Of a DNA stretch of 33,271 nt, positions 1 through 21,609 are shown piece after piece. A program made the position numbers and the translations under genes. Every line of letters starts with the position of its first letter. Within the stretch, counting starts at the first letter, position 1. Below the pieces are notes generated by a model that was given only the letters and a program-made list of their open reading frames with translations, was not told where the DNA came from and did not search any database. Source of the stretch: a virus; IMG/VR virus record IMGVR_UViG_3300040801_004062, positions 1 through 33,271 of that record; one strand, given 5' to 3'.

Positions 1-67
1 CACATCCCCCAATGCCGCCTTGTCACTAACTGACGCTAAATCAACTGCTTACGCCAAAATAAAATTT

Positions 68-96
68 GGGCTACCTCACGCTGTGGAAGGTAGCCC
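68..96 (-). terminator. Possible minus-strand terminator hairpin
   Basis: The 8-base arms GGGCTACC (68-75) and GGTAGCCC (89-96) are perfectly complementary around a 13-base loop. Read on the minus strand, the stem is followed by AAATTTTATTTT, a T-rich tail that could end leftward transcription. On the + strand no T run follows, so it would not act as a classic terminator there. No minus-strand gene is seen immediately to the right, so the role is uncertain. Confidence 0.3.
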
Positions 97-164
97 GGGA
101 ATGGGTGGAAGACCGGGGCATATTCGAACCCCCCATAGTGATTTAGCGGCCGTTCGTGCCTATA

Positions 165-185
165 CGGTGAAGTACAATCTCACCG
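165..185 (+). promoter_or_regulatory. Inverted repeat abutting the endolysin start
   Basis: CGGTGA (165-170) and TCACCG (180-185) form a perfect 6-base dyad with a 9-base loop containing GTAC. It ends four bases before the ATG at 190. The arrangement CGGTG, two bases, GTAC, a few bases, ACCG, four bases, ATG recurs before the gene at 6161. It could be an operator or a hairpin controlling translation. Confidence 0.4.
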
Positions 186-189
186 CGTA

Positions 190-843: not shown

Positions 844-1183
844 AACAGGCCATTATCCCGTCCGACGCTGGCGGCTTTCTCCCTCCACCGTAGCCGCCGC
901 CCTACATGCCGTCAGAAGCGGAACGGACAACGACCAACGCCCGATGTCAGAGTTCCGCCGAAAGGAATACGACCTAACGCTACGGGCTGAACGGGCGAAG
1001 CGAGGCCGGTTATTATACGATCCGAAAGGCGGAGCTAAGTGGGGGAAAAGCCCGGCCCGGAGAAATCCGTTTCACGGAATTGAAGATCAGCCACACTACC
1101 TCACCGAAGACGAATATCGGCGGCGAAAGCGTAACTCCACGCTAACGAAATATCCGATGCTCCCATCATGGAAACAAACCTAG
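833..1183 (+). CDS. Hypothetical basic protein
   Basis: I do not recognise this 116-residue protein. It is rich in Arg and Lys, including the stretch RRNPFHGIEDQPHYLTEDEY, and has no signal peptide or membrane segment. An N-terminal extension of about 37 residues precedes an internal Met (944) before the charged part, so the true start could be 833 or 944. Using 833 gives an 11-base overlap with the endolysin, matching the dense packing of the neighbours. The last 16 bases overlap the next gene. Its basic character would allow nucleic-acid binding, but that is only a guess. Confidence 0.6.
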   Translation: MPSKTGHYPVRRWRLSPSTVAAALHAVRSGTDNDQRPMSEFRRKEYDLTLRAERAKRGRLLYDPKGGAKWGKSPARRNPFHGIEDQPHYLTEDEYRRRKRNSTLTKYPMLPSWKQT

Positions 1184-1539
1184 TCATGCCATATACCTAT
1201 CTACCTCCCCACTTTCCGTTTGATGCCGTTACCCATAATGGGATACGAACGGCATGGAACATGATCAAGGATAGTTACCCTCGCCTTATACTGGAGGAGT
1301 GTACCGTGTACGCTAAAAACCCCGTGACACGAAGGAAGAAAGCCGTTCTCACCTTTACCGTTTATTCCCTCAATGTTGGCCTAACGCGGGAAGATGCGGC
1401 CCGTCGTTCTGGGTGCGAAATAGCCTTGGTTGCGGAGTTTGCCTACGACGATCAAACGACCAACGTCCGGCATGCACAACGCTTTTTCAGCGGATTACTC
1501 GAAGCCACCAGACACCTCGGCAACAACCCGACAAACTAA
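1168..1539 (+). CDS. Hypothetical protein
   Basis: I do not recognise this 123-residue soluble-looking protein. The middle part alternates hydrophobic and charged residues, as in a small alpha/beta domain (LILEECTVYAKNPVTRRKKAV, then LTFTVYSLNVG), followed by helices toward the C-terminus. The ATG at 1168 overlaps the previous gene by 16 bases; a second ATG at 1186, three bases after the upstream stop, is an equally good start. It lies in the tightly spaced series from the endolysin to the csf genes. Confidence 0.6.
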   Translation: METNLVMPYTYLPPHFPFDAVTHNGIRTAWNMIKDSYPRLILEECTVYAKNPVTRRKKAVLTFTVYSLNVGLTREDAARRSGCEIALVAEFAYDDQTTNVRHAQRFFSGLLEATRHLGNNPTN

Positions 1540-1551
1540 CTCCACCCCCGC

Positions 1552-1905
1552 ATGAAAATACCCATCTACGCCCTAGCTGCTGTCGGCCTACTAACCATAG
1601 CCGCCATCGGAGCCCAAACCATCATCGACCATTACCGCTTGTGTAAGTGGGAGTGCCAGCGCCGCCGCAAAAAAGGCGAGGAAACGGAATGGGACTTTGG
1701 GCACATACCGATCTTCTTCATTGAAGGGCAACAAGCGGATGAATTACTGAGCTACTTGCAAGGCAGCGAACCCGCCAACCGCAGCCCCTTTCCCACTCAA
1801 CGGGACTTGTTGGAATGGGATCTCATTCACGCCGAAGAAACGGAAGACTACGAGCGGGCGGCACAAATTCGGGATGAGCTAAACCGGATGCAGCGTGATA
1901 AGTAA
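1552..1905 (+). CDS. Small membrane protein with UVR-like helical hairpin
   Basis: Residues 5-24 form a single hydrophobic segment (YALAAVGLLTIAAIGA) that would anchor the protein or act as an uncleaved signal. A short basic stretch (residues 38-43) follows. The last 33 residues match the UVR helical-hairpin pattern of UvrB, UvrC, McsA and ClpC: an acidic helix, then EDYERAAQIRDELNRM. In those families the motif mediates protein contacts. A membrane-tethered UVR-like module is unusual, and the partner is unknown. It starts 12 bases after the preceding gene and overlaps the following one by 11 bases. The motif is seen by eye only. Confidence 0.65.
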   Translation: MKIPIYALAAVGLLTIAAIGAQTIIDHYRLCKWECQRRRKKGEETEWDFGHIPIFFIEGQQADELLSYLQGSEPANRSPFPTQRDLLEWDLIHAEETEDYERAAQIRDELNRMQRDK

Positions 1906-2206
1906 GCAAAATCAAAATCGGGCATTGTCCGATATGATGCGGGACGACGAAGCGGATGGGCTGTACGATACGGGGCACCCGTTGGCAGGCAGGCCCATCT
2001 ATCGCAGTACCGATTGGAAGGAAAGGGTAGCAGCCGATCATTTCAATCCACCCGCTCCCGGCATCTACCGCTGCGTGGTCGGTAGCGTCACCCGCATGTA
2101 CGAGTTCCTAGCTTGGGATGGTCGGCAGTGGTTACAAGCTGATATGGAAAGCCCGGCGCATGGGGTTGTGCAGTGGGATTTGGTGGCCTTTAAGGACGCG
2201 CCGTGA
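1895..2206 (+). CDS. Hypothetical protein, GTG start
   Basis: I do not recognise this 103-residue protein. The GTG at 1895 sits inside the end of the previous gene; a later ATG pair near 1934 is an alternative start. The C-terminal half (PGIYRCVVGSVTRMYEFLAW, then DGRQWLQADM) looks like a small beta-rich fold with Trp-rich strands, a style seen in many small phage proteins. The stop overlaps the GTG of the RuvC-like gene by four bases, so translation is probably coupled to it. Confidence 0.6.
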   Translation: MISKQNQNRALSDMMRDDEADGLYDTGHPLAGRPIYRSTDWKERVAADHFNPPAPGIYRCVVGSVTRMYEFLAWDGRQWLQADMESPAHGVVQWDLVAFKDAP

Positions 2207-2748
2207 AGATGTCCATCAACGAGTTCCGCGCCTACCGGGACGGCCTGAACGCAAAGACGACCGAGGCTAACCGTGCCGCCCTACGAGGCGACCACACCGC
2301 CGTGCTCGGCATCGATCCCGCCTTCCGCAAGGGCGGCATTGGCTTATGTCTTATCAACGGACTGAAGGTCACCTTCCCCAAGGTCCCGACTACCCTTGCC
2401 GCCGTCGATTATATCCGGAAACACGCCCCCCGTTGCCGGGTGGTGATCGAGAACTCCAATCTTCAGAACGCCAGCTTCGACCTATCCGGTTCCAAGCCCG
2501 TGGTTGCCCGCAAGAGCCGCAACGTGGGGGCAAACCAGGCTATCAGCCAAATCCTAGTTGAAGCAGCGCAGGAGCGGTTTGCCGACGTACTGGAGCTCTC
2601 CCCTAAAAACAAGGGGAAAAAGTGGTGCCGAACCCTTGCCCGCTCGGTTGCCGCAAGCCTGGGACACGTCCTGCCTTCGCGCATGAGCCAGGATAAGCGG
2701 GATGCTTACCAGTTGGCCGTCCGGGGGATCAGCAATCGCCACGCATGA
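2203..2748 (+). CDS. RuvC-like RNase H-fold nuclease
   Basis: A 181-residue protein with the signature of phage RuvC-type resolvases. The first strand carries VLGIDPAFRKGGIGLCLI with catalytic candidate Asp38; Glu83 lies in VVIENSN at the end of a second core strand; SQDKRDAYQLAV near the C-terminus supplies the Asp-x-x-Asp pair (Asp164, Asp167) that RuvC uses as its third metal site. RuvC-family enzymes cut Holliday junctions and other branched DNA, which phages use to resolve DNA before packaging. The start is GTG 2203 or ATG 2209. The stop overlaps the csf1-like ATG by four bases (ATGA at 2745-2748), so it is translationally coupled to the CRISPR-like operon and might be a recruited effector; a plain resolvase is the simpler reading. 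Confidence 0.8.
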   Translation: MKMSINEFRAYRDGLNAKTTEANRAALRGDHTAVLGIDPAFRKGGIGLCLINGLKVTFPKVPTTLAAVDYIRKHAPRCRVVIENSNLQNASFDLSGSKPVVARKSRNVGANQAISQILVEAAQERFADVLELSPKNKGKKWCRTLARSVAASLGHVLPSRMSQDKRDAYQLAVRGISNRHA

Positions 2749-3497
2749 CTTCGAAGCCGCATATTGCCCGGCTCTACGAACTCAGCGAACGGCCCGCCTA
2801 CGGACAGGTAGAGGGCGTGTGTCGTGTCACTGGCCTTCCGGGCCGGGGGGTACCCTTTGATAAGTGGGTGAAAAAGACGTTTACCGATTGGCAGTACCTT
2901 TGCCCGGGGGACATTGTGAGTAACGAAGCCCTACTGACCTTCGACGAAAAAAGCGAAGAAATTAAGCGCCGAACCGGTAAGGAAAAGGCCCAAAAATTTC
3001 GCTCTTATTCCCACTTCATAGTCGGGGGGCGGTGGGCGCTTTTCACCAAGGCCAATAAGGTCGAGATGTGGAACGCCCTGTTCGACGCTACCCTAGAAAT
3101 GGCCGTCATCGCCGATTCGGGTCAAAAGCACTTGGTCTTCAAACATCAGCCGGGCACGTGGCAACTTGAAGAACTGCAGGTCTATCCCGACCCCGAACGG
3201 CTCAGGGTAGACCACCTTGCGTTGCAAACCCTTCTTGCCATGGGGTTCAACCAAAAGGAGGCCATCACCGGGACATATCCAGCATACAAACTCGCCCGAC
3301 TGGACAGCCTTACGCAGTGGCTCGAAATCGATACCTACCTGAAGACCCGCCGGCAAAGCGGTCTGTTTCAGATTGCCGCTTTCCTACTTTTTCCCGACGA
3401 AACCATACAACTCAATGACGCACGAACAACTAGTCCACCTGCTGCTACACCCCCTGTTCCGGTGCATTCCGGCGGAATACAAGGTCAGCTATTCTAG
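2745..3497 (+). CDS. csf1: Csf1-like type IV CRISPR large-subunit protein
   Basis: Likely homologue of Csf1, the small Cas8-like protein of type IV effector complexes. Sequence support: an N-terminal finger-like region with Cys26-x-x-Gly, then FTDW (46-49) and Cys53, placed like the Csf1 zinc-finger region with its FTD motif; and a downstream DSGQKHLVFK segment (124-133) resembling the SGQKH stretch I recall in Csf1 proteins. At 250 residues it has Csf1-like length. Only two Cys remain where four would bind zinc, so the finger looks degenerate. The tail after residue 225 is Pro/Thr-rich and probably disordered; it is encoded in the 83-base overlap with the next gene. First gene of the csf set by position. 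The assignment leans on context as well as motifs. Confidence 0.6.
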   Translation: MTSKPHIARLYELSERPAYGQVEGVCRVTGLPGRGVPFDKWVKKTFTDWQYLCPGDIVSNEALLTFDEKSEEIKRRTGKEKAQKFRSYSHFIVGGRWALFTKANKVEMWNALFDATLEMAVIADSGQKHLVFKHQPGTWQLEELQVYPDPERLRVDHLALQTLLAMGFNQKEAITGTYPAYKLARLDSLTQWLEIDTYLKTRRQSGLFQIAAFLLFPDETIQLNDARTTSPPAATPPVPVHSGGIQGQLF

Positions 3498-3750
3498 GAC
3501 CATTTGGGAGCAATTCGAGAGCCGCATCCGTGCGAGCGCCTACACCGACCGGCTTCCTGTTTTCCTGGAAAATATCAAACGCAAGTTGGGCATCCGGTTG
3601 CGTAAGGAATACGTAGCTGGCGTAGCTCAGGTCGTTAACGAAAGCGACGACCGCGCCGTGCTCGCCATGCTGCGCGACGACACGACCTACCTAACCATCC
3701 TGACCCGTCTGCGTAATGATGCGGAAAAGGAACAGATCAAAGAACCATGA
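3415..3750 (+). CDS. Cas11-like small helical subunit (candidate)
   Basis: A 111-residue, almost wholly helical and charged protein placed between the csf1-like and csf2 genes. That is the position, size and predicted fold expected for the Cas11 small subunit of type IV-B effector complexes, which lines the inner face of the Cas7 backbone. Cas11 proteins share little sequence, so this rests on length, helicity and synteny. The ATG at 3415 is chosen because an upstream in-frame start at 3373 would lengthen the overlap with csf1 and has no better leader. The overlap with csf1 is already 83 bases; the stop overlaps csf2 as ATGA. Confidence 0.5.
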   Translation: MTHEQLVHLLLHPLFRCIPAEYKVSYSRTIWEQFESRIRASAYTDRLPVFLENIKRKLGIRLRKEYVAGVAQVVNESDDRAVLAMLRDDTTYLTILTRLRNDAEKEQIKEP

Positions 3751-4718
3751 GAACCTACGAATTAAACGGCCTAGTTACGGCCCTTTCCAGCATAGCCCAT
3801 TCCGGCGGCGAGCGCAACGGCAACATCAGCCAGCTACGCCGAGAGCCGGTCATCCAGCCGGACGGGCGGCCCGAACAGGTGCCCGTAATCTCAGGGAACA
3901 GTATCCGCGGCATCCTGCGCGACCGGGGTATGTACCACATGCTTTCTAAGCTTGGATACGGGGTGCGCGAAGACGGCACGGTCAAAGGCCTGCCTCTCCC
4001 CGCCTTTCACTTCCTATTTTCGGGGGGCAGCCTGACCAGCACCGGGTCGAACGGGCTGGACATCGACGATATGCGCCGCGTAGAGCACCTGCTGCCGCTA
4101 ATGAGCGTATTTGGTGGCGCGATCGGCAATGCCATCAAGCCCGGAAAAATGAAGGTCGGCAAGATGCGTCTACGCTGCCGGGAAAATGACCACCTGCTAC
4201 CCGAACGCTACCGCTTGGGGGAAAACGCGGCGAGCTGCTGGTCGATGACGGGCGTGGAGTTTTATACCCGCCGCGATGACGCGAAGAACGACCGCCTGCT
4301 GCCCATGCTTCACGGTGGCCATCCAGGCATGAAGTACGTCGGGGACGATAACAGTATGTTCGACTCTAAGGAGGTGCGGCAAAAAAAGGACGGAACGCCC
4401 CAGCAGATGATGTACGAAATCGAAACCATCGCTGCCGGTGCGCAGTTCGTGTGGCGCATCATTTTGGAAGACGTGACCGACCTGGAGTTTGAGGCCTTTC
4501 TGACCACTATGCTGGCCTTCAGCCGCTCGCCCTTTATCGGGGGAAAGAGTGCCGTCGGATTGGGCGAAATCAGCATTCACATGGACCGATGGATCGAAAT
4601 TGACAGCCGGCTTGCGGCTACCGGAAAAGAAATTGATCTGCCACTGCTTGAAAAATACGACCGCCACCTAACTGAAAACGCCGAAGACATCCGCGAGTGG
4701 CTACACAACGTGAAATAG
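3747..4718 (+). CDS. csf2: Csf2, type IV Cas7-family backbone protein
   Basis: A RAMP-superfamily protein best read as Csf2, the Cas7 subunit that polymerises along the guide RNA in type IV complexes. After an N-terminal strand with IAHSGGERNGN (16-26) comes VPVISGNSIRGILRD (46-59), the ISGNS-LRG motif characteristic of type III/IV Cas7 proteins. Near the C-terminus is the glycine-rich loop SPFIGGKSAVGLGEI (261-275) that closes the RRM-like core. Its 323 residues fit the family. It overlaps the cas11-like gene by four bases and the CysH-like gene by 22. This is the most confident CRISPR call of the operon. Alternatives such as a Csm3 or Cmr4 homologue are unlikely, because the neighbours are Csf3-like and CysH-like and no Cas10 is present. 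Confidence 0.82.
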   Translation: MRTYELNGLVTALSSIAHSGGERNGNISQLRREPVIQPDGRPEQVPVISGNSIRGILRDRGMYHMLSKLGYGVREDGTVKGLPLPAFHFLFSGGSLTSTGSNGLDIDDMRRVEHLLPLMSVFGGAIGNAIKPGKMKVGKMRLRCRENDHLLPERYRLGENAASCWSMTGVEFYTRRDDAKNDRLLPMLHGGHPGMKYVGDDNSMFDSKEVRQKKDGTPQQMMYEIETIAAGAQFVWRIILEDVTDLEFEAFLTTMLAFSRSPFIGGKSAVGLGEISIHMDRWIEIDSRLAATGKEIDLPLLEKYDRHLTENAEDIREWLHNVK

Positions 4719-5392
4719 CCCGGGCGTACGCGGGCCTTTCTACTTACCGCCGGCGTGTTGCCGCGACACGGGACTGGATCGCCCAACAACTAGAAACGGT
4801 TGAGCGGCCCTACGTGGCTTGTTCGTTCGGAAAGGATAGCGGCGTAATGCTGGATTTGGTCCTCAAAATGCGCCCCAATATTCCGATCCGATTTATCCGC
4901 TGGAAGGTGGAAACGGAGCTGTTCAACAATTTTGACGACGTGATCGGGCAGTGGCAGAACCGCTATCCGGACATGACCCTGGAGCAGGTGACGCACGTCC
5001 GCAAATCGGCTAGCGACTTTCGAAAGGATCGATTTGATGCAAAACCCGGCCGGTACGACAGTTACTTTGTCGGCATACGTGCACAGGAGAGCCGGGGGCG
5101 GCGAATTAGTTTGCGGCACCATGGCATGCGCTACCTGAACACCGCCGGACTCCTGCGCCTATGCCCGTTGGCTTGGTGGAAAACCGAAGACGTAGCAGCC
5201 TATACGGTCATCCATGATCTTCCCCTATTGGACAGCTACCGGTCGCACGGCTTCGAAACTCGCACCGGATCGGGCATTGCTCGGGACAGTCACGGCCAAC
5301 GTGAACTCAGCCTATCAATCTTGAAAAAGCGCGATTTAGCGGCTTTCAACCGGCTACTAGACTACATGCCAGAACTAGCCCAGTGGTCCTAA
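4697..5392 (+). CDS. cysH: CysH-like PP-loop ATPase of type IV-B loci
   Basis: A 231-residue member of the PAPS reductase/adenine nucleotide alpha-hydrolase superfamily. The PP-loop SFGKDSG (43-49) binds ATP or adenylated nucleotide; VGIRAQESRGRR (125-135) is the second nucleotide-site motif; LCPLAWWKTEDVAAY (from 155) is the usual segment before the C-terminal helices. True sulfonucleotide reductases carry a catalytic Glu-Cys-Gly-Leu-His near the C-terminus; it is absent, and the only Cys are Cys42 and Cys156, so sulfate reduction is unlikely. CysH-like proteins are a known partner of type IV-B CRISPR operons, with unknown activity. The GTG start lies inside the csf2 end (22-base overlap). 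Here the gene sits between csf2 and csf3. Confidence 0.8.
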   Translation: MATQREIARAYAGLSTYRRRVAATRDWIAQQLETVERPYVACSFGKDSGVMLDLVLKMRPNIPIRFIRWKVETELFNNFDDVIGQWQNRYPDMTLEQVTHVRKSASDFRKDRFDAKPGRYDSYFVGIRAQESRGRRISLRHHGMRYLNTAGLLRLCPLAWWKTEDVAAYTVIHDLPLLDSYRSHGFETRTGSGIARDSHGQRELSLSILKKRDLAAFNRLLDYMPELAQWS

Positions 5393-5403
5393 TCAAAACA
5401 ACC

Positions 5404-6108
5404 ATGAATGACTCCACTGCTAACCGTCCTACCTCCTTGCGAATCCGCGCCCACCTCGCTACGGGCGTTATCTCTGATCAATGGCTTCCTCTAGATAGTG
5501 TCATGTACTACCACGCCGTGCGGCGGCGCTACGGTTCCCAGACCGTAACCCATGCCCGGCGTGGCGTCCATTTGGAGGGCGGCGGAATCAATCTTCCGTT
5601 ACTGAAGCGGAACGCCAATGCTGGACCCCGATGGTACTACGCTATGTCATTTGCTCAGTGGCCCGAGCACACCGTGGAGAGCAAAACATTCTTCACGAAG
5701 CAGAACCGCCTGCGGTTCCAGCACATGGTTGATTTTCGAGGGAAACGCGGCAAGATTGAGACGAAGAGTGGACGTTACAAGCCGCTGCACGTCCACGTAC
5801 ACGCTCGCCACGCGCTATACATTGATTGGTACTGCACTGGGCATCGCGCAGAAATTGAAGACCTGCTGCGCTTCTGCACTCATTTGGGTAAGAAATCATC
5901 TCAGGGGTGGGGCGAAGTGTTACGTTGGGAGATTGTCGACTGGCCGGAAGCGTGGTATTTGAACGGACCGGGCGGAAAGTTGATGCGGGCCGTGCCCACA
6001 AGGGGACCGGGTTATCTTTACGGTATTCGCCCGAGCTATTGGCTGCCTAAACACCAATTTACGTGTCGAATGCCGGAGGTGCAGAGGGGGGAAGCAAACC
6101 GGGGATGA
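5404..6108 (+). CDS. csf3: Csf3, type IV Cas5-family protein
   Basis: A RAMP protein with Csf3 (Cas5) character, expected to cap the 5-prime handle end of a guide RNA in a type IV complex. The clearest mark is the C-terminal glycine-rich loop LGKKSSQGWGEVLRWEIVDW (161-180). The N-terminal part has the strand pattern expected of an RRM-like fold (LRIRAHLATGVISDQWLPLD, then an Arg-rich YHAVRRRYG helix), and a long basic middle (RLRFQHMVDFRGKRGKIETK) suits RNA binding. The ATG at 5404 has an A-rich leader and is preferred to GTG 5383, which would overlap cysH by 10 bases. It is the last gene of the csf set; a co-axial dyad follows 18 bases after its stop. Confidence 0.75.
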   Translation: MNDSTANRPTSLRIRAHLATGVISDQWLPLDSVMYYHAVRRRYGSQTVTHARRGVHLEGGGINLPLLKRNANAGPRWYYAMSFAQWPEHTVESKTFFTKQNRLRFQHMVDFRGKRGKIETKSGRYKPLHVHVHARHALYIDWYCTGHRAEIEDLLRFCTHLGKKSSQGWGEVLRWEIVDWPEAWYLNGPGGKLMRAVPTRGPGYLYGIRPSYWLPKHQFTCRMPEVQRGEANRG

Positions 6109-6126
6109 ACGGACGAAAGTCGGGGA

Positions 6127-6158
6127 TTCGGTCCGGTGTGGTACGACACAAAACCGAA
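6127..6158 (+). promoter_or_regulatory. Nested co-axial dyad before the membrane protein gene
   Basis: Outer arms TTCGGT (6127-6132) and ACCGAA (6153-6158) and inner arms GTGT (6136-6139) and ACAC (6146-6149) share one centre at 6142/6143, on a GTAC core. Twelve of sixteen base pairs match, so it looks like an operator for a dimeric or tetrameric regulator, or a hairpin covering the start region. It ends two bases before the ATG at 6161, and no T run follows, so it is not a standard terminator. Confidence 0.5.
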
Positions 6159-6160
6159 AG

Positions 6161-6640
6161 ATGACCAATAATAAACTTTGCGACATTAAGCAACTAGAGC
6201 GGACATACACAATTTGGAAGTGTGGGTTTTTTCTACTGGCATACACTATGCTTGCCGCCTTTGGGTGGTGCTTGGTCAGGACGGCTTGGGATGTTTTTGA
6301 TTGGAGCATATCCGGCTTTGCGCTATTGGTTTTTGGACTGTTGATTCTTGTAGTTGTGTGCTTCATAGCATCAATGCTTCTTGCTGTCCTTATTGCTCTG
6401 ATTGCTGAAAAATCACCGGACCGATCCCGGCAAACGGACCTCATCACCGAGTACATCGCCCCCACTACCGATCATCCCGGCGGTAAGTATGTGACCAGCG
6501 AAGAAGCCCATAACTTGATTGACGGCGAATGGTGGGGTTTGCCACTTTCAGCGCACAAGTCCGATAAGATTCACGCCGAAATTATGGCTAGGAACGATCA
6601 GAAATATCCGCTACTGATCGCCAGGGGCAAGGCCAAATAA
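6161..6640 (+). CDS. Membrane protein of unknown function
   Basis: A 159-residue protein with hydrophobic segments at roughly residues 20-42 and 50-85, the latter long enough for one or two passes, and a soluble C-terminal half (YIAPTTDHPGGKYVTSEEAH and beyond) with no motif I recognise. It could be a holin-like or superinfection-exclusion protein, but the large soluble tail is not typical of holins. Base composition is more A/T-rich than the genes around it, a hint of separate origin. It follows the csf operon after a 52-base gap containing the co-axial dyad, so it may be separately controlled. Confidence 0.7.
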   Translation: MTNNKLCDIKQLERTYTIWKCGFFLLAYTMLAAFGWCLVRTAWDVFDWSISGFALLVFGLLILVVVCFIASMLLAVLIALIAEKSPDRSRQTDLITEYIAPTTDHPGGKYVTSEEAHNLIDGEWWGLPLSAHKSDKIHAEIMARNDQKYPLLIARGKAK

Positions 6641-6654
6641 ACGCAGTGCCAAAC

Positions 6655-6858
6655 ATGAAACTCTACGCATTCCGCAACCCCACCGACCACCCCAAAGCCC
6701 TCGCCTACGTGGTCGCTCCAAGCCAGGATGAAGCCACCAAGGCCCTATCGAAAAAGCTATCGGCCGACGTTATGGAGAATACCGTATTCGTGCGTGAATT
6801 GGCCCTTTCGGACTTTAATCGGCCCACGGTGCTGGATATGACGATCGTTCCATTTTGA
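6655..6858 (+). CDS. Small hypothetical protein
   Basis: A 67-residue soluble protein I do not recognise. It starts with strand-like KLYAFRNPTDHPKALAYVVA, then a helix (SQDEATKALSKKLSAD) and a final strand pair, consistent with a small alpha/beta fold. ATG 6655 is preferred over GTG 6646 because it directly precedes the conserved-looking strand and has an AAAC leader; the gap to the previous gene is 14 bases. The gene ends just before the hairpin at 6860. Confidence 0.55.
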   Translation: MKLYAFRNPTDHPKALAYVVAPSQDEATKALSKKLSADVMENTVFVRELALSDFNRPTVLDMTIVPF

Positions 6859-7156
6859 AGGGAATAATTTTAATTCCCGTACCTTAGATCCAAGGTTGGC
6901 ACCACCGGACCCGCTTATTCCCATGTCGTTACCCCTAGCGACCGCCAACCCAACCCCCCCACCAAGTCCGACCCGACGAACCGCCCGGCCCCGCGCCCGG
7001 CATTTCTCTCATAGTTGTGTTCGTTCATTAGCATTTTCAGCCCTCACCCGCGCCCGCGAGCCCATCACCCGATTGCCGGGGGATAGTCTCTGGGGAGATG
7101 CCCGTGGGCCGGGTCGGGGTTATTCTGCGCACCCGCAACCCGTACTGAAATAGCCC
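6859..7156. other. Gene-poor stretch between cargo and packaging genes
   Basis: About 300 bases without a convincing gene. An open frame at 6896-7153 (TTG start, or ATG 6923) encodes a low-complexity Pro/Arg/Ala-rich product and is probably chance in GC-rich DNA. The stretch contains the hairpin at 6860-6878 and an A/T-richer patch around 7000-7040, the best place for a promoter driving the terminase genes, although I cannot match a full consensus. Confidence 0.5.
6860..6878 (+). promoter_or_regulatory. Short hairpin after the small gene
   Basis: GGGAAT (6860-6865) and ATTCCC (6873-6878) are perfect 6-base arms around an A/T-only 7-base loop, two bases after a stop codon. The position suits a transcription end or mRNA 3-prime stabiliser, but there is no T tract after it. 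An operator is the other possibility. Confidence 0.35.
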
Positions 7157-7522
7157 ATGCGCCCACTATTGGAATACGCCCCGATGAGCCTGCTCGAAGT
7201 CTTGGATGCAGCTACGCGCGCCGGATCAAGCGGAGATGCCGGACTTGCCGACTACTCGCCAAGCGAATACCGGGCTCTGGTAGGCCTACTTGCCACCCGT
7301 TCACTCACCAATCAGGTCCTGTTCGCCTATACCCTGGCCAGCGACCGGGCCGGACGGGAAAGGCGTAGCGGACTGTTCTTTCTGCTGCGCACGGTCTTCG
7401 ACGAGCAACAGGAATTGACCTACGACGGCCTACGCACCCGTTACCGCCGGATGCTGTCCCGGTACTACACTGCCGAAAAGGAAGAACGGCGAAAGGGACA
7501 AATTGCCCCTTCACGCGGCTAG
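7157..7522 (+). CDS. Hypothetical protein upstream of terminase
   Basis: A 121-residue, mostly helical protein that I do not recognise. The first half (MSLLEVLDAATRAG, then YSPSEYRALVGLLATRSLT) and the second half (VFDEQQELTYDGLRTRYRRM) look like compact helices with a basic C-terminus. It begins the packaging module and lies 36 bases before the small terminase gene; it could be a regulator or packaging accessory, but nothing in the sequence decides this. An internal ATG at residue 10 is an alternative start. Confidence 0.55.
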   Translation: MRPLLEYAPMSLLEVLDAATRAGSSGDAGLADYSPSEYRALVGLLATRSLTNQVLFAYTLASDRAGRERRSGLFFLLRTVFDEQQELTYDGLRTRYRRMLSRYYTAEKEERRKGQIAPSRG

Positions 7523-7533
7523 TGCCGGCAGTA

Positions 7534-7548
7534 GTTTAGCGGCTAAAC
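7534..7548 (+). promoter_or_regulatory. Perfect 7-base palindrome before terminase
   Basis: GTTTAGC and GCTAAAC flank a single G, giving a 15-base dyad that ends ten bases before the TTG start of the small terminase gene. It could be an operator, or part of a packaging recognition site, since such sites often lie near the small-subunit gene. No experimental support exists in the sequence. Confidence 0.4.
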
Positions 7549-7558
7549 CCGCCCCGAA

Positions 7559-8110
7559 TTGGCCGATAAGCCCACGAAAAACGAACTGGTTGCAGCCCTG
7601 ACCGGGAAGCAGCGACAATTCTGCGAGGAGTACGTCATTGATTGGAACGGCACCCGGGCGGCAAAGCGGGCTGGGTATAGCAAAAAGACGGCCCATGTTG
7701 TCGCTTCCGAAAACTTAACTAAACCTAATGTTCGGGCCTACGTCGAATACCTGCGTGAAAACGTAGCCGAGGCGGCGGGCATCAGTGCTTTGTGGGTCGC
7801 CCAACACTACAAAAGCCAAGTAGAGTCCGGGGTCGACAAGGTCTTTCAGGACTGGTTCAACCGTAAGGACTTCGACGAACTGCCCGAAGCGGTCAAGGCC
7901 TGCATTAAGAAGATCGAAACCCGTATCGAAACCTACACGACCAAAGACGGGCAGGAAATTCAGCAGGAACAAGTCAAGCTGGAGTTCTACGATAAGCAAA
8001 CTGCCCTGCGGGGCCTTCGTGATATGTTGGGCCTCGACCAACCCACGCGGACCGAAACGAAGCACACGGGCGAAGTTGCCATCGGCGGCATCAACATCCT
8101 CCAGCCGTGA
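7559..8110 (+). CDS. terS: Terminase small subunit
   Basis: Predicted DNA-recognition subunit of the packaging motor, Terminase_2 family. The N-terminal domain shows the family hallmark LTGKQRQFCEEYVIDWNGTR followed by AAKRAGYSKKTAHVVASENL and PNVRAYVEYL, a helix-turn-helix that binds the packaging site. The middle and C-terminus are helical and acidic, suited to ring formation and contact with the large subunit. The length of 183 residues is normal. The start appears to be TTG at 7559, because the conserved domain begins about 15 residues later and no ATG or GTG precedes it in frame. The stop overlaps the GTG of the large subunit by four bases. Confidence 0.88.
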   Translation: MADKPTKNELVAALTGKQRQFCEEYVIDWNGTRAAKRAGYSKKTAHVVASENLTKPNVRAYVEYLRENVAEAAGISALWVAQHYKSQVESGVDKVFQDWFNRKDFDELPEAVKACIKKIETRIETYTTKDGQEIQQEQVKLEFYDKQTALRGLRDMLGLDQPTRTETKHTGEVAIGGINILQP

Positions 8111-13948: not shown

Positions 13949-15154
13949 GTGACCAACGCGATCAACCCCTTTGCCGCCCTGCCTACCTACCGCAGCCTAT
14001 ACGATCAGGCGCACTTCCGTGCCGGGGTGCCGCCGCTGCGCTGCGAGCGCGGGCGGCTGCTGCCGGTGCAAATTGCCACCCCGGGGGATGTGGCGGGGGT
14101 GGATGCTACGTTCGTGGAGCGGCACGGGCGGTTCACGGTAGCCCTTCCCCGCGCCAACTTCAGCCGCACCTTCGTAGACGAAGGGCTGTATTACACCTAC
14201 GAAGCCGAACCCTTTGCCGCGATTCTACCGGAGTGCGAAGGCTTTTTGGAAATTCGGGTAGGTGAGGTGACGATCTACTCCGAAATGTTGCAGTTGCTCG
14301 ACATGGGGCCGGGGCGCGTCATCGAATTTGCGCCCCTGGCCTATTCGGCGGATGATGGTGGATCGGTGCGCATCATCCTATCGAAGCAGGATGCCCTTGC
14401 CTTTGCCTTCGCCGCCGACACCCGCTTTGAGATCCGGACCCCCGGCGGGGCGTGGCGCAGGATGTCGCTCGGGGGTGCTTCGCTCACCGTGCGCAATACG
14501 GACTTTGGAGCGGCCGACTACCCCGACGGCACGATGCAGGTGCGCTTTACGGGCTCCCTTGCTTCGGGTCGGGTGGTGCAGACCACCTACTTGCTCACGT
14601 TAAACCCAAAACTTAGCGAAGAGACCCGGCTCATCCCCCTGCCCGTAGCCCGTGAAATGCCGCAGGGGGACTTCTACTGCCTGGAATACTACAACAGCCG
14701 CGACTTGTTCGGAACCCTCTACGAAAAAGGATTTCGGCAGCGCATCTACCTGCAGGGCACCTTCGACGGGCCGGCGGTCAGCGAGAAGGACGAAGAGGTC
14801 GAGCGCGTGACGGGACGAACGGATCGCTACGCGTCCGTGGTCAAGGTGCGCCCGTCGTTTGTTTTTCACGGTTCCCCCGACTACCTGGTCGGCCCCCTGG
14901 AAGCGGCCGTTCGTCATGACTATATACGCCTGATCCGGATGGCGGACGGTACGGCCTACGACCTGGAAGAAGCCACCTTTGAGCACGCGCAGGGGGAAGA
15001 CCCACTAAGCATCGTGGGCACCATCACCTACACCGCCGGGCTAACCAATCGGTACGGGGCGGGCAAGCCGCTGAGTGCTACCAGCGCTCCCCTCATCGCC
15101 CCGGTAAAGGATGGTGGCATACGAGTCGGTTCCACACCAAATCGTCCCGGATGA
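13949..15154 (+). CDS. Virion structural protein
   Basis: A 401-residue protein of unknown family. It is strand-rich with phage-like motifs such as PPLRCERGRLLPVQIATPGD and FEIRTPGGAWRRMSLGGASL, suggesting a beta-sandwich structural component. The likely start is GTG 13949, eleven bases after the previous stop; TTG 13934, overlapping that stop, is an alternative. Upstream in-frame sequence is antisense-like and low-quality. It may pair with the preceding large structural protein, since the two are adjacent and of similar style. Confidence 0.65.
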   Translation: MTNAINPFAALPTYRSLYDQAHFRAGVPPLRCERGRLLPVQIATPGDVAGVDATFVERHGRFTVALPRANFSRTFVDEGLYYTYEAEPFAAILPECEGFLEIRVGEVTIYSEMLQLLDMGPGRVIEFAPLAYSADDGGSVRIILSKQDALAFAFAADTRFEIRTPGGAWRRMSLGGASLTVRNTDFGAADYPDGTMQVRFTGSLASGRVVQTTYLLTLNPKLSEETRLIPLPVAREMPQGDFYCLEYYNSRDLFGTLYEKGFRQRIYLQGTFDGPAVSEKDEEVERVTGRTDRYASVVKVRPSFVFHGSPDYLVGPLEAAVRHDYIRLIRMADGTAYDLEEATFEHAQGEDPLSIVGTITYTAGLTNRYGAGKPLSATSAPLIAPVKDGGIRVGSTPNRPG

Positions 15155-15606
15155 CCCCTCGCGAAGCCGCACAGCACTACCGCCGCCTGATTGAAAAAAT
15201 GGGCGCTACACAGGCCGAGGACGCCCTGCAAACCGCCTTCGACGGGGTGGGGCTGCTGCGCGCCCGTATCCCCCGGGGTGAAGACTTTCGGGGACAGTCC
15301 TTTTCGGACTATACGCCGGATTACGCCCAGCGGGGCCGGCTCGACTTGGGCTATCAGGCGGCCTACAAAGATTACACCCGCACCGGCGAACTGCTCAAAA
15401 GCATCACCGCTGAAGTGCGGCAGCAAACGCCCGGGGCGGTCACGATCGCCATTGCTCCGCAGGGAACCGAGAACATTGATAAGGTGCGCGGAGCGGTGCG
15501 CAAAGATGGCAATCTGATGAAGTTATCCGCTACCGAGATCGACCTACTTACCGACGCCTACTCCGCAGCGCGGGGCGAGCGCGTCAAAAAACACTTCCGC
15601 ACATGA
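15151..15606 (+). CDS. HK97 gp10-like connector or tail-completion protein (candidate)
   Basis: A 151-residue protein. The helix at the start (REAAQHYRRLIEKMGATQAE) is followed by basic, strand-prone parts (GELLKSITAEVRQQTPGAVT) that fit the gp10-like fold used by head-tail connectors. Its place between structural proteins and tail chaperones agrees. ATG 15151 overlaps the previous stop by four bases. The call relies on context and general pattern, not a diagnostic motif. Confidence 0.5.
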   Translation: MTPREAAQHYRRLIEKMGATQAEDALQTAFDGVGLLRARIPRGEDFRGQSFSDYTPDYAQRGRLDLGYQAAYKDYTRTGELLKSITAEVRQQTPGAVTIAIAPQGTENIDKVRGAVRKDGNLMKLSATEIDLLTDAYSAARGERVKKHFRT

Positions 15607-15914: not shown

Positions 15915-16530
15915 TGCCCTATTGCCCGCCGGCCGCGCCCTGACCGCCCTGCCGTGGCTGGAACGCTTCGGTGGCTTGGCGCGTCCGGTGCGCATCCCCC
16001 AAGAAAACGGCAAGCCCATCACCTATCCGGTGCCCCGCGGCTACTCCGATGACGAGTGCCGCCGCCTGAAGAAGTATACCGACCTGGTGCCGTCTTCCGA
16101 TAAGCGCTCGTTACTCTACTTCGAGCAAATCGGCCCCGGCCAGGCGGCCACCCAGCAGCCACAGGACCGCACCCACCACGCCATGCTGTTCCGGGTACGG
16201 GCGGTGTACTGGCTCAACTTAGCCGCGCTGGGGTTGGCTGGGCACAATGTTGCGGCGGGCCTGGCGGGGGCCTCGATCGTTGCCGCCCTTGCCGGTGCGG
16301 GTGGAACTACTGAACCGCCACAGATCGCCCGGGTAGCCTACGGGGTCTTTGCCTGCCAGCCGGCCGACGTGGAGCTGTTCAGCCGCTACGGGTACTCCGC
16401 CCAAATCGACGCCTTCCTGTTCTATCCCTACGACTTTGGGGCGATCGACTTCACCGTATCCTACACCTTTTCGGAGCGGTGCCTGACTGAACTCACCCCC
16501 CAAACCCCCATTGAATGTATTATCTACTAA
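15904..16530 (+). CDS. Tail-region structural protein (terminator-like candidate)
   Basis: A 208-residue protein starting at ATG 15904 inside the end of the previous gene; the longer open frame from 15670 overlaps a better gene and is discarded. A hydrophobic middle (LNLAALGLAGHNVAAGLAGA and on) looks like a long apolar helix or membrane-like segment. The C-terminal strand part FYPYDFGAIDFTVSYTF is the kind seen in tail terminator or tail-completion proteins. Role is inferred from position only. Confidence 0.55.
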   Translation: MLNNALLPAGRALTALPWLERFGGLARPVRIPQENGKPITYPVPRGYSDDECRRLKKYTDLVPSSDKRSLLYFEQIGPGQAATQQPQDRTHHAMLFRVRAVYWLNLAALGLAGHNVAAGLAGASIVAALAGAGGTTEPPQIARVAYGVFACQPADVELFSRYGYSAQIDAFLFYPYDFGAIDFTVSYTFSERCLTELTPQTPIECIIY

Positions 16531-16847
16531 TCTTTTGTGGGGCAGTAATCGGGATGTGGGCGTACTGCTACGTTGCCATGGTGCAGGACGGGGAGCTACT
16601 GGCACCTTGGGGGCGGACCATCAACCGCTACTTGCACGGGGAAGACTACCCGCCTGATCCGGCCTTGCTCACGGGCTTGCGCTACGCCCTCTACAAGTAC
16701 ACCTACTGCACTTTTTGCCTAGCCGGGGCAATGGCCTTCGTGGCTGCTACTGCTTGGTGCCTATCCGCACACACGCTCCTACCCCTGGCCACCCTTCCCC
16801 CCATCGCTATGATCACCACCCAACTACTCACTGCATGGACCAAATAA
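16515..16847 (+). CDS. Membrane protein in tail module
   Basis: A 110-residue protein with three predicted membrane segments, roughly residues 2-20, 61-82 and 88-107. It could be a holin placed within the tail module, or one of the small membrane proteins that lie before tail chaperones in some Bacteroidota phages. It overlaps the previous gene by 16 bases and the next by 13. No catalytic motif is seen. Confidence 0.65.
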   Translation: MYYLLIFCGAVIGMWAYCYVAMVQDGELLAPWGRTINRYLHGEDYPPDPALLTGLRYALYKYTYCTFCLAGAMAFVAATAWCLSAHTLLPLATLPPIAMITTQLLTAWTK

Positions 16848-17452
16848 ATACCGCTACCGAAGATGCCGGGCAAAAGGACCCGCTAGTGGCCGCCATTCCC
16901 CTGCCCCGGACCGACACGGGCGAATTGCAGCGCACGTTTCCCGCCGGGGGGTCAACCTACCGGTGGCTGAGTTTGGATGAAATCGCCGTTCGGCGGGCCA
17001 CCCACCTGGCGAACTGGCTGCGGCTGCTTGCCACCGGGCAGGACAGTCGGGAAAAGATGGCCGAGTTCGTCAACGAAACCACCCGGCAAGCCTTTCAGGC
17101 CGAAAACCTGATGGAGGTTCAAAAGCTGATCGCCATTCGCAACCAGGCCTTTCTGGACAACATCATTGTCCTGACCCAGGAAAAGCACCTGACGGCCATG
17201 TTGATTTGCGCTTGCTTCACCCTGCGGGAAGGGGAGGACGTGCGGACCTTTTCGGAAGAGATTGCGCAGGGTTACGTCCGGGACTTCGAACGGGAGGGCT
17301 ACAACCACCTTGATTTTTTTCAATTGGCCGGGGGCTTGTCGAGCGATTTCAGCGCAGACTTCCGGCGGACCCGCGAAACCGTAAACCAGCGCGAAGTTTG
17401 GCGGGACGATACCGCTACGAAATCGGACGGGACCGCAAACTTGTTCGCATAG
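16835..17452 (+). CDS. Tail assembly chaperone, zero-frame product
   Basis: A 205-residue helical protein directly before the tape-measure gene, the standard site for the lambda gpG-type chaperone that coats the tape measure during tail assembly. It starts at ATG 16835, overlapping the previous stop. Codons 160-162 read GAT TTT TTT, giving a slippery T7 run (17314-17320) in the correct phase for a -1 shift. Ribosomes that do not slip make this product; those that do make a 265-residue fusion with the following frame. Confidence 0.7.
   Translation: MDQINTATEDAGQKDPLVAAIPLPRTDTGELQRTFPAGGSTYRWLSLDEIAVRRATHLANWLRLLATGQDSREKMAEFVNETTRQAFQAENLMEVQKLIAIRNQAFLDNIIVLTQEKHLTAMLICACFTLREGEDVRTFSEEIAQGYVRDFEREGYNHLDFFQLAGGLSSDFSADFRRTRETVNQREVWRDDTATKSDGTANLFA
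17314..17320 (+). promoter_or_regulatory. Probable -1 ribosomal frameshift site
   Basis: The heptamer T-TTT-TTT satisfies X-XXY-YYZ in phase with the chaperone frame (codons TTT 17315-17317 and TTT 17318-17320). The -1 frame is open from 17320 to 17631 without a stop. A G/C-rich stretch follows within ten bases (GGCCGGGGGCTTG), which might fold as a stimulator, though I did not verify a structure. Confidence 0.65.
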
Positions 17453-17631
17453 ACACCTTCGCCGAGGCCCTGGCCGCCCTCCCGGGGGGCGTGGAAGTAA
17501 CGGCGCACTACACCGAGTACACCACATCCGAGCTATTCACCATGGCCTACTACGAATACTACCAACTGATGTACCTGGCCGAACAGCGGGATGAGGCAGC
17601 GCGAAAGGCGAGGCAGAAACAAGCGAAGTAA
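17320..17631 (+). CDS. Tail assembly chaperone, frameshifted C-terminal extension
   Basis: About 103 residues reached from the upstream chaperone by -1 shifting at 17314-17320, analogous to the T part of lambda gpGT. As a separate gene it would have only TTG 17398 as an early start, or ATG 17542 late, with no leader, which argues for expression by frameshift. The C-terminus has Tyr-rich FTMAYYEYYQLMYLAEQRDE and a charged helix, the kind of module that contacts the tail tube. The tape measure follows 34 bases later. Confidence 0.65.
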   Translation, partial: SIGRGLVERFQRRLPADPRNRKPARSLAGRYRYEIGRDRKLVRIDTFAEALAALPGGVEVTAHYTEYTTSELFTMAYYEYYQLMYLAEQRDEAARKARQKQAK

Positions 17632-17665: not shown

Positions 17666-20600
17666 ATGGCCATTGAACAAGAATTAGTCTTCCGGGAAGA
17701 CCTGTCCGGCATTGCCCGCTCTGCCGATGCCCTCGATAGCTTGGGCGCTAAGGCCGAACGGGCAATGGGCAGCGTCAGTCGTTCCATCAATGAGGCGGGG
17801 CGGGCGGTGCAGGACTACGACAAGAACCTGAGCCAAGCCGCCCGGTCGGGACAGAAGAGCGCCACCGATGCCACCCGGCAACAGGACCGCGCCATTGCCG
17901 AACTGGTCAACCGGCTGGTGAAGGCCGAAAAGGAGGCGGCCCGCTACGCTGCTGCCCAACGGAAGGTGGAAAAAGAGGCGGCACGGGCGGCAAAGGAACT
18001 CGCTGAACAGGAACAACAACTAGCCGATCTGACCACCCGCTACGAGGGCTTATCCGACAAGGGCAGCGCGGCGGCGCGGGAACTGGCCGCCGAGATCGAA
18101 CGCCTGAGCGGAGCCACGAAAACCGGAGCTTCGGCCGCCGAAGACCTGGAGAAGCAAGCCGAAAACCTAGAAAAAGCGCAGGGTCAGGCTGCCGTTGCCG
18201 CCGCTAGCCACGAAAAGAGCCTGCTCGGCATTACTGCCCAACTCCGACGGGCCGGGGCCGATGCCGGGCAGTACGCTACCGCGCAGGGGCTGGTCAAGGC
18301 GCAAATTGACCAAACCAACTCCGAGATCACCGAACAGCGGGCGGTGCTACTAGACTTGCAGCGACAGTACGCCGCCCTGGAAGGGGAAGGGGGGCAGGCG
18401 GCGGCAACGCTGCAAGCCGACATCGAACGCCTGACAGCTTCGGTGCGCGAAGGGGAAACCGCCATGGGGTTGCTGCAGCTCGAAAGCATCGGATTGGGGG
18501 ATGCGCAGAAGCGGGCGGCAAAGGAAGCGGGCGGTTTGTCACGGCCCATTCGCTTGACGGCCAACGAGGCGCAGAACCTGTCGTTTCAGCTTAACGACGT
18601 GTTCACTTCTCTTAGCAGTGGAGGCGGCGCACTACGCACCTTTGCCCAACAAGGCCCCCAAATCACCCAAATTTTCGGCGGCGTAGGTAACACGCTGCGC
18701 TTCTTCGGGCAGCAAGCCCTCGGGGCGGTTAAGTCGGTATTCACCCTGCGGGGGGCGCTATCGGTCTTGGGAAAGGTGGGCATCCTCCTGCTCATTACCA
18801 CCGTTGCCACCGCGCTGGTGGCCCTCAACGATCGGTTCAACTTCGTAGGTAAGACCGTCACCGCTCTGACCGCAACCTTCGAGGTCATCACCGATCGGTT
18901 CAACATATTCAAGGGGGCGCTGGGCAGTTTCCTGACCGGCAACTTCCGCGAAGGCTTTCAGCAGTTGGGCGAGAGCGTAGCGGGCGTCGGCGGTGAAATA
19001 TCCGCCGCCGTCCGGCAGGCGCGGCTATTGGAGGCCGCGCTGGGTCGCGTCACGGCACGGCAAGCGGACCTCGACATCATCCGGGCCGGGGAACAGCGAC
19101 GGCTGGAAGAACTGGCCAGGCTGCGGGATGATGAAAGCCGATCTACCGCCCAACGGATCGCCAGCGAGCGCGAAATCGCGGAGATTACCCGACGGCGGGG
19201 GGAGGAGGAGTTGGCCTTGGCAAAAGACCAATTTGCGATTGAACAGGAAAAGGAAGAACGCTTTGCGCGGGGCAGCCAGGCCACCCTTGCCGCCATCCGC
19301 CGCAACGGCACGGCTGCTATCGCTGCTGCGCGCAACCTGTCCGAGGAAGAAGCCGAAGCCCTGGCCGAGCAAGCCAAAACCATCTTCGACCTGCAAGCGG
19401 AAGTAGCCGATCAGGCCGCCGCCTCCGAGGAAGTCATCGCCGGCATCCGCCAGGAAGGGCTTGAAGCCTACGAAGAAGCGATTGAGCGCCGTAAGGAACT
19501 GGAGGAAGAACTTGCGGACGTTCGCCTGAAGATTGCCGAAAAGGTGCGCGAAGCGGAAGCCCGGGGCTTGGAAGGGGAGGCGCTCATTCAGTTCCGCCGC
19601 AAACAGGCCGATGCCGAAATTGACGAACTGGAACGGGTCGCCAAGGCCGCCTTTGCCGCCGCCGGGGTGGAATACGACCAAGCGGAAAACTTTGCCGAGC
19701 TGCGACTGGACCTGGCCCGGGAAACGGCTAAGGAAATTGCCAAGGTGCGCATCGAAGAGGGGCAGCGGTCCATCGACTACTACCGGGATGCCGCGCTTGC
19801 GGAAGTGGAGCTCCTCAGCGCATCGGTAGACGATCAACTCAACCTGGAAGAGTTCAAGGCCGCCGAACGCGCCCGCATCCTGCGCACCAGCCTACTGCAA
19901 CAACGCGAACTACTGCTTCAGGCGGGCTTCGGGGAAGATTCGCTCGAAGTGCTACAGGTCGAAGTCGAGATCCAGGAACAGGAACGGGATGCGGCCGACG
20001 TGGCCCTCGACAGTCAGGCGCGCATCCGCGCCGGCCTGCTGGAAACGGCCGAAATCCGCCGGGACATCCGCGACCTCGAAATTGATGCCGAAGAAGAAGT
20101 GACGGACAAGTCGATCAGCTTGGCGAACTACCGCAAGCGCGAAAAGCTGAAGGCCGAAGAAGAGTTCCTAATCGAAAAGTTGCGCCTGTTGAAGCAGGAC
20201 CCCACCGCCACAGGGGAGCAGATCAAACTACTCGACCTGCAAATCCAAGCCGTCCGCCAGGGAATTGAGGACTTGGGCAACATCAAATTGGGACCCCTGG
20301 AGCGCATCAAACGCGCCATTGGGGAGGCCCTGAAGATCGACGAAGGCACCGTGGACGGCTTGCTCGCCCAGGTTGGGGGCATCATCAATAACGTAGCCGA
20401 GGGGCTCAACGCCCAGCTGGAAGCCGAAATTGCCGGCTACGACCGCATCATCGACCGACTGAGCGAACGCATTGAGGAAACGCAGTCGCTATTGGACGAG
20501 CAACTGGCCCTGCGCGCCGAAGGGCTAGCCAACGACGCGGACATTGTGCAGGAGCAACTCGACGAAGAATTGGCCGCCCGGCAACGGGCCGCCGAAAAGC

Positions 20601-21268
20601 AAGCCGAACTACAACAAAAGGCCGCCCGTCGGCAACTCGCCATCGATTCGGCGCAGCAAGCCAGCGCCCTGGCCCTTGCCGCCGCACAGTTGCTGGCCGC
20701 CAATGCTAGTGTGCCGCTGGTGGGGGTGATTATCGCCGCTTCCGCCATTGCGTCGGCCTTCGCCATCTTCTCCCGCTTCAAGGCGCAGGCGGCCCAGGCG
20801 GCCAACGATATTCCCACCTTCCGCCAGGGGGGCAAGTTAGTTGATGGCAAAGTCATCGGTCCCAGCCACGAAGACGGCGGCGTGAACGTCATCGACCGAC
20901 GTGGGCGGGTCTACAATATCGAGGGGGAGGAGTTCGTCGTCAACCGCAAGGAAGCGCGCCGCCGTCCGGGGCTACTGGACGCGATCAATACGGGAAAGAT
21001 CGACCGGATGCCGGCGGCCCAGGCGCTCGCCCTCATGGGGAAGACGGCATCCAACGACGGCCTCGTTCGGGTGTCGGGGCGAACGACGGAGCGCACCCCG
21101 GAGCCAAAACTGGGGGCTGCCGAACTCCAAGCCTTGCTCAACAACCACGCCGCCGAGATCGTCGAAGCAATCGGGGGGCGGCCCCATATTGTTCCGCTGC
21201 CTGACGGCCGGGTGCTGGAAAGGACGAAGACCGCCACGAAGGAGCGGACGCGAATGATAAAGGTCTAG
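17666..21268 (+). CDS. Tail tape measure protein
   Basis: A 1200-residue protein that sets tail length; long alpha-helical coiled coil rich in Ala, Glu, Gln and Arg from about 30-290 and 470-980. Hydrophobic segments lie near 370-388 (VGILLLITTVATALVAL) and 1000-1038, expected to help DNA passage through the host membrane. The C-terminus from about 1050 (TFRQGGKLVDGKVIGPSHED, then GVNVIDRRGRVYNIEGEEFV) is the glycine-rich tail common in tape measures of Bacteroidota phages. ATG 17666 has no Shine-Dalgarno. The stop overlaps the stop of the converging lipoprotein gene. Confidence 0.9.
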   Translation: MAIEQELVFREDLSGIARSADALDSLGAKAERAMGSVSRSINEAGRAVQDYDKNLSQAARSGQKSATDATRQQDRAIAELVNRLVKAEKEAARYAAAQRKVEKEAARAAKELAEQEQQLADLTTRYEGLSDKGSAAARELAAEIERLSGATKTGASAAEDLEKQAENLEKAQGQAAVAAASHEKSLLGITAQLRRAGADAGQYATAQGLVKAQIDQTNSEITEQRAVLLDLQRQYAALEGEGGQAAATLQADIERLTASVREGETAMGLLQLESIGLGDAQKRAAKEAGGLSRPIRLTANEAQNLSFQLNDVFTSLSSGGGALRTFAQQGPQITQIFGGVGNTLRFFGQQALGAVKSVFTLRGALSVLGKVGILLLITTVATALVALNDRFNFVGKTVTALTATFEVITDRFNIFKGALGSFLTGNFREGFQQLGESVAGVGGEISAAVRQARLLEAALGRVTARQADLDIIRAGEQRRLEELARLRDDESRSTAQRIASEREIAEITRRRGEEELALAKDQFAIEQEKEERFARGSQATLAAIRRNGTAAIAAARNLSEEEAEALAEQAKTIFDLQAEVADQAAASEEVIAGIRQEGLEAYEEAIERRKELEEELADVRLKIAEKVREAEARGLEGEALIQFRRKQADAEIDELERVAKAAFAAAGVEYDQAENFAELRLDLARETAKEIAKVRIEEGQRSIDYYRDAALAEVELLSASVDDQLNLEEFKAAERARILRTSLLQQRELLLQAGFGEDSLEVLQVEVEIQEQERDAADVALDSQARIRAGLLETAEIRRDIRDLEIDAEEEVTDKSISLANYRKREKLKAEEEFLIEKLRLLKQDPTATGEQIKLLDLQIQAVRQGIEDLGNIKLGPLERIKRAIGEALKIDEGTVDGLLAQVGGIINNVAEGLNAQLEAEIAGYDRIIDRLSERIEETQSLLDEQLALRAEGLANDADIVQEQLDEELAARQRAAEKQAELQQKAARRQLAIDSAQQASALALAAAQLLAANASVPLVGVIIAASAIASAFAIFSRFKAQAAQAANDIPTFRQGGKLVDGKVIGPSHEDGGVNVIDRRGRVYNIEGEEFVVNRKEARRRPGLLDAINTGKIDRMPAAQALALMGKTASNDGLVRVSGRTTERTPEPKLGAAELQALLNNHAAEIVEAIGGRPHIVPLPDGRVLERTKTATKERTRMIKV

Positions 21269-21609
21269 TCGTAGCGTTTCACTCGGTAGTCTGCTATCAG
21301 TAGCGAATCGGGTCCAGTTTGTTCGTAGACCAACAAGGAGCGCTTGCGCAGCATCGCCCCGAAGCGGTTCTGTGCGTCGACGTAGACGATCACCCGCCAA
21401 GAATTGGAGGGCTCACCCCCATTGTTCAGGCGCACCACGCTATTGAGGCTATCCACGAAGGCCGCCGTCGACGGGGTAAGTAAGCTCCCCCGCACCCGCT
21501 TGCGCGCATCCGATAGCAATACGTCCGCTCGCGTAGGCGCGGGCGGCGTGGGTTCGGAGCACGAAAGGGCGATCAGGCAAAGAATAAGGGTAGGCAGCAG
21601 GTGTTTCAT
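21265..21609 (-). CDS. Lipoprotein on opposite strand (moron-like)
   Basis: A 114-residue predicted lipoprotein: MKHLLPTLILCLIALSC has a basic start, a hydrophobic core and a lipobox ending at Cys17, then a Ser/Pro/Thr linker and a small domain with WRVIVYVDAQNRFGAMLRKR. It is the only convincing minus-strand gene and needs its own promoter, expected right of 21609. Phage lipoproteins of this type often block superinfection or change the host surface; this is a class inference, not shown here. ATG 21609 is chosen over the longer frame from 21693 because the signal peptide begins there. Stop codons of this gene and the tape measure overlap. Confidence 0.72.
   Translation of the reverse strand: MKHLLPTLILCLIALSCSEPTPPAPTRADVLLSDARKRVRGSLLTPSTAAFVDSLNSVVRLNNGGEPSNSWRVIVYVDAQNRFGAMLRKRSLLVYEQTGPDSLLIADYRVKRYD

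Follow-up and report, generated by a model that had tools for sequence, protein, structure and literature searches.

In phage lambda, the tail assembly proteins G and GT arise through a -1 frameshift, which has counterparts in other long-tailed phages (Levin 1993; Xu, Hendrix and Duda 2004, as summarised in PMC5009743). The short and long lambda forms occur at a ratio of about 30:1, and both take part in wrapping the tape measure protein and in recruiting the tube protein (PMC5009743). Frameshifts of the G/GT type have long been known and are annotated in many phages (PMC10885494, PMC5009743). The chaperone fold of HK97 gp13 and YqbN is represented by the PDB entries 2OB9 and 3KLU (Pell 2013, as referred to in PMC9603447). 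In E. coli, H_HH.U_UU.Y motifs, including U_UUU_UUU and U_UUU_UUC, are among the efficient slippery sites (PMC4066793).

The window analysed here, meaning the whole stretch of DNA of 33,271 nucleotides, is a 33-kb virus record; its large terminase has matches in Flavobacterium phage 11b and other phages of Bacteroidota. Two consecutive ORFs lie directly upstream of its tape measure gene, and through them a single gene of this Bacteroidota tailed phage very probably yields a helper protein of tail building in two versions. The features of the locus are as follows:

15151-15606, plus strand: head-tail or tail gene, conserved upstream neighbour, with a homologue in the same order in prophage L010 (41% identity)
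16515-16847, plus strand: small membrane-type protein, conserved neighbour upstream of G, with a homologue in the same order in L010
16835-17452, plus strand: putative G-like tail assembly chaperone (first ORF, frame 0), 205 aa, with homologues in nine divergent loci
17314-17320, plus strand: predicted slippery heptamer T_TTT_TTT, in phase, matched by T_TTT_TTN at the corresponding alignment position of every homologue
17314-17631, plus strand: second ORF (T-like extension) in the -1 frame, supported by codon usage and by profile counterparts in relatives
17321-17452, plus strand: overlap with an open reading in both frame 0 (the G tail) and frame -1, its tail conserved with L010 and with dual constraint in the L145 family
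17327-17366, plus strand: candidate stimulatory hairpin (arms 17327-17334 and 17359-17366), 6 nt past the heptamer, sharing the outer stem of L010
17666-21268, plus strand: tape measure protein, 1200 aa (PF06791 TMP_2, E 1.6e-13)

The G ORF begins with ATG and comprises 205 codons. The initial annotation had placed a run of seven T in the correct phase for -1 slippage, and this is what the sequence holds, as the frame-0 codons at 17312-17323 are GAT TTT TTT CAA and the run at 17314-17320 counts exactly seven T. Just upstream of the heptamer the -1 frame is shut by TGA 17311-17313. The open -1 frame of 103 codons that had been reported was also recovered; after the shift it runs from TCA (17320) to AAG (17628) as 103 sense codons, ending at TAA 17629-17631, and these codons would be added to G residues 1-162. 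Unshifted G continues for 43 codons beyond the site, to TAG 17450-17452, so that the two-frame overlap is long. The second frame had been described as lacking a good start of its own, and accordingly neither ATG nor GTG precedes its conserved core GRYRYEI, and TTG 17398 is the sole conventional start ahead of that core; later starts in the -1 frame are GTG 17491 and ATG 17542. The position just before the tape measure was borne out as well, since the PF06791 gene follows the end of the -1 ORF after 34 nt.

As in lambda G/GT, the tape measure gene is immediately preceded by two ORFs, of which the second is in the -1 frame and lacks a usable start, and the first carries an in-phase slippery heptamer close to its end. 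As with lambda and its counterparts, the architecture is conserved and the sequences are divergent. The lambda slippery heptamer is GGGAAAG, whereas here it is T_TTT_TTN. Further differences from lambda G/GT systems are the long overlap with a conserved unshifted tail and the lack of detectable sequence similarity to known chaperone families.

Taken alone, the heptamer is unremarkable, because 29 other in-phase XXXYYYN heptamers occur in the 9,445 codons of the window's other genes. None of these 29 is TTTTTTN, and 17314-17320 is the only run of at least seven T in the window. An open -1 stretch of 105 codons is found at 4% of places inside other genes. The combination of heptamer and open -1 frame, and above all its conservation in relatives, is far beyond chance. 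Given the amino acids and the local codon usage, the codon-choice chance that all ten homologues spell xxT TTT TTN is 4.8e-8, a product of codon-choice probabilities in which the ten homologues are treated as independent.

When G, the -1 ORF or the fusion served directly as the query, no relative was detected in IMG/VR, GTDB contigs or INPHARED. An alignment of the Bacteroidota phage terminases led to a prophage of Lewinella sp. W8 (L010), whose terminase is 55% identical and in which homologues of the portal, the tail genes, G and the -1 ORF stand in the same order as in the window. Profile searches of genomes from the order, class and families around L010 yielded L159, L161, L164, L165, L167, L168 and L169. 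Locus L145 was picked by the G profile among terminase loci with a weak score (E 0.011), and its architecture agrees. Close relatives of L145 and L164 were taken from IMG/VR. Locus L162 was excluded (E 3e-4, five internal stops), and L002-L004, found as matches to the tape measure alone, are without the G/T pair of this family.

The conservation of the slippery site in relatives, which had been proposed as a check of the frameshift, was confirmed: all ten G homologues (the window and nine divergent loci) carry T_TTT_TTN at the aligned place, in phase and in the X_XXY_YYZ form, and a -1-frame ORF follows G in each of them. The identity of G to the window is 39% in L010 and 19-22% in the next four, thus about 19-39% where measured. 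The site is spelled TTT TTT in most homologues, TTT TTC in L010 and L169, and TTT TTA in L159; its last base varies (T, C, A) and the site is still kept. Locus L159 reads Phe-Leu here, yet retains the heptamer. Longer T runs occur in L161, L164, L167 and L168. In the alignment of the window, L010 and the next four, Phe161, within the site, is one of just seven invariant residues. No other in-phase heptamer among those checked inside G was common to the homologues.

The gene order of G, -1 ORF and tape measure position is the same in most homologues, with a tape measure gene or a long ORF in its position coming next in 8 of the 10. The exceptions are L161, where a long ORF was not seen after the -1 ORF within the stretch read, and L010. 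In L010 no tape measure gene follows the G/T pair (19260-21416), and an ORF with a lipoprotein-like start is found instead; this prophage may be cut short, decayed or rearranged. The profile of the -1 ORF independently finds its counterpart in L164 (E 7e-4) and L165 (E 9e-3). A mechanical scan of other terminase loci also revealed two viral contigs, L100 (2755-3003) and L113 (4704-4979), with an in-phase T_TTT_TTT, a -1 ORF and then a long ORF; neither is recognised by the G profile.

The use of the two frames was examined in a set of 19 close relatives, the L145 family, of which eight representatives served for counts of single-base codon differences. Upstream of the site, 71% of the differences are synonymous in frame 0, and beyond the G stop 84% are synonymous in frame -1. 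Within the overlap, frames 0 and -1 are both biased to synonymous change, whereas frame +1 is not. These substitution patterns show both frames to be in use in the overlap. At finer resolution, the first 60 bases of the overlap are dominated by frame 0, and from about +60 the signal of frame -1 is clear. Codon usage in the window itself gives the same hand-over between frames, with 0.54 per codon for frame 0 before the site, 0.19 for frame 0 and -0.20 for frame -1 in the overlap, and 0.49 for frame -1 after the G stop. The substitution pattern together with the hand-over in codon usage therefore places the predicted shift at or shortly after the 5' end of the overlap, where the heptamer is the only shared candidate site. 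The exact base assigned to the shift derives from the conserved heptamer and not from the substitutions, because frame 0 dominates the first 60 overlap bases.

The frame-0 tail after the site is conserved between the window and L010 (AGGLSxxFxxDFRxT), which indicates a use for the unshifted product as well. Conservation of the -1 translation beyond what frame 0 forces was unspecific in the comparison of the window with L010, as the +1 control was nearly as high.

A stimulatory hairpin downstream of the heptamer, expected for such signals at a spacing of 5-9 nt, is likely present in two clades. In L010 it starts 6 nt past the heptamer (z -5.2), and in L145 and L183 a longer hairpin starts about 7 nt past it (z -4.4 and -4.6). 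Nine outer pairs of the L145-family hairpin are kept in 14 of 14 sequences, and two pairs are changed on both sides, these changes coming from one sub-clade and thus representing few independent events. The window is able to form the outer stem of L010, with a G-U pair replacing an A-U pair. By plain folding the window hairpin does not stand out in its GC-rich stretch (z -0.1), and a placed-hairpin test on 50 nt, in which the spacing was not strictly enforced, gave a modest p of 0.02. The same test was negative for most of the distant homologues, and the hairpin is absent in several homologues. The hairpin of the window is thus a candidate weakly supported by these data.

The arrangement could also result from transcriptional slippage, in which the polymerase slips on the T run, mixed mRNA is made and the fusion arises by ordinary translation. 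Several members have seven to nine T, and transcriptional slippage was named as a possible reason for the rarity of T7 in E. coli genes (PMC4066793). However, the run counts only six T in L010 and L169, where C comes next, and in L159, where A comes next; it keeps the X_XXY_YYZ phase throughout, although slippage by the polymerase would not require this; and a hairpin at ribosomal spacing is found in two clades. Because of the six-T members, the strict phase and the hairpin, we regard this explanation as very unlikely. An error of sequencing or assembly, in which one real ORF was split by a wrong T count, might also be considered, since homopolymers are a common place for indel errors. Nevertheless, the split recurs at an identical position in about 30 contigs and genomes, where the six to nine T always stand in one phase. 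Beyond the site, frame 0 is conserved in its own right between the window and L010 and shows a synonymous bias in the L145 family. Given the recurrence of this split in so many contigs and genomes, such an error is almost certainly not the cause.

The second ORF might instead be an independent gene, initiated from TTG 17398 or a rare start, with no fusion made. The TTG of the window lies just before the conserved core, and Bacteroidota genes are often without a clear ribosome binding site. Nonetheless, the -1 ORF of L010 has no ATG, GTG or TTG before its conserved GRYRWEI, and the absence of a start there disfavours independent initiation. In L159, L161, L165 and L167 the first ATG lies well within the -1 ORF, and in the L145 family frame -1 is constrained upstream of any ATG. 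Across the homologues, the second ORF is a -1 extension without a conserved start of its own, whereas the slippery heptamer is conserved. Independent initiation is consequently considered highly improbable, and -1 frameshifting by the ribosome is retained as the reading of the locus.

No credible match of G or of the -1 ORF product was detected in Pfam, PHROGs or NCBIfam. The fold model of G is mostly helical and of low confidence (pLDDT 62). In the BFVD fold search with this low-confidence model, the named viral matches in the top 30 were all tail assembly chaperones, with E values of 0.1-0.6. The same model found nothing useful in fold searches of the PDB, where the chains compared included no listed chaperone. 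HK97 gp13 and YqbN are presumed to have the same role as G; their fold was not matched by the low-confidence, mostly helical G model in the PDB search.

Flavobacterium phage 11b, a Bacteroidota siphophage with a related terminase, resembles the window in that its genes 38 and 39 form a first ORF and a -1 ORF followed by a long ORF. Unlike in the window, its candidate site is A_AAA_AAA, and its proteins are missed by the G profile. In the scan of terminase loci mentioned above, A_AAA_AAA was located at the start of the -1 overlap, before a long ORF in the tape measure position, in phage 11b (L005, 17855-18528) and in a Sphingobacterium prophage (L030, 18283-19031). These ORF pairs are candidates for another type of frameshifted chaperone in Bacteroidota phages.

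The window also harbours a type IV CRISPR effector operon (2745-6108), a side observation on this phage, and a glucosaminidase-domain protein that is probably its lysin. The marks of type IV-B are a CysH-like gene and a missing array (PMC8175902). A CRISPR-like repeat array was not found in window positions 1-8100. The features are:

190-843: glucosaminidase-domain protein (PF01832, E 1.7e-34)
2745-3497: Csf1/Cas8 (PADLOC E 4.9e-10)
3747-4718: Csf2/Cas7 (E 4.1e-71)
4697-5392: CysH-like protein (PF01507, E 5.6e-13)
5383-6108: Csf3/Cas5 (E 7.7e-39)

Taken together, the conserved site, its phase, the -1 frame, the absence of a usable start and the position support the lambda-like G/GT frameshift suggested in the initial annotation. 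With high confidence, the locus is predicted to use programmed -1 ribosomal frameshifting as in lambda G/GT, giving a short G and a 265-aa GT as chaperones of the tape measure protein. Most ribosomes would read 16835-17452 and produce the short G of 205 aa. In a minority, tRNA-Phe would occupy both the P site and the A site over TTT TTT; by tandem slippage of the two tRNAs these ribosomes would move back one base at 17314-17320, possibly aided by the hairpin six bases downstream, and would continue in the -1 frame to 17631, producing the GT fusion of 265 aa. If the lambda model applies, the tape measure protein encoded by the neighbouring gene would be coated by many copies of G and few of GT, and the T part would recruit the tail tube subunit. 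We infer from sequence that the GT fusion is made, as well as its efficiency and the role of the hairpin in the window; the putative chaperone function is transferred from lambda by position and architecture.

The principle of this frameshift is long known; here it is retained throughout a family of relatives that so far has no name. On balance, we favour the view that these loci represent an unnamed chaperone family of Bacteroidota phages in which T_TTT_TTN is fixed, the proteins have diverged beyond the reach of standard family models, the long dual-coded overlap serves both the unshifted G tail and the beginning of the T part, and stimulatory hairpins were gained or lost clade by clade. Among the papers searched, none was found that describes it for this family or from phages of Bacteroidota, a weak indication that no such description exists. 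A gene pair of Bacteroidota phages missed by current family libraries thereby receives a frameshift assignment that is well supported, and probably its correct annotation. Where the proteins are unrecognisable, such a pair can still be spotted by a conserved in-phase heptamer and a -1 ORF located ahead of the tape measure gene. The T_TTT_TTN family is also a useful case for how Bacteroidota ribosomes slip, because U_UUU_UUN forms a minor class in the PMC4066793 survey of natural bacterial sites, where IS elements mostly carry A_AAA_AAR.
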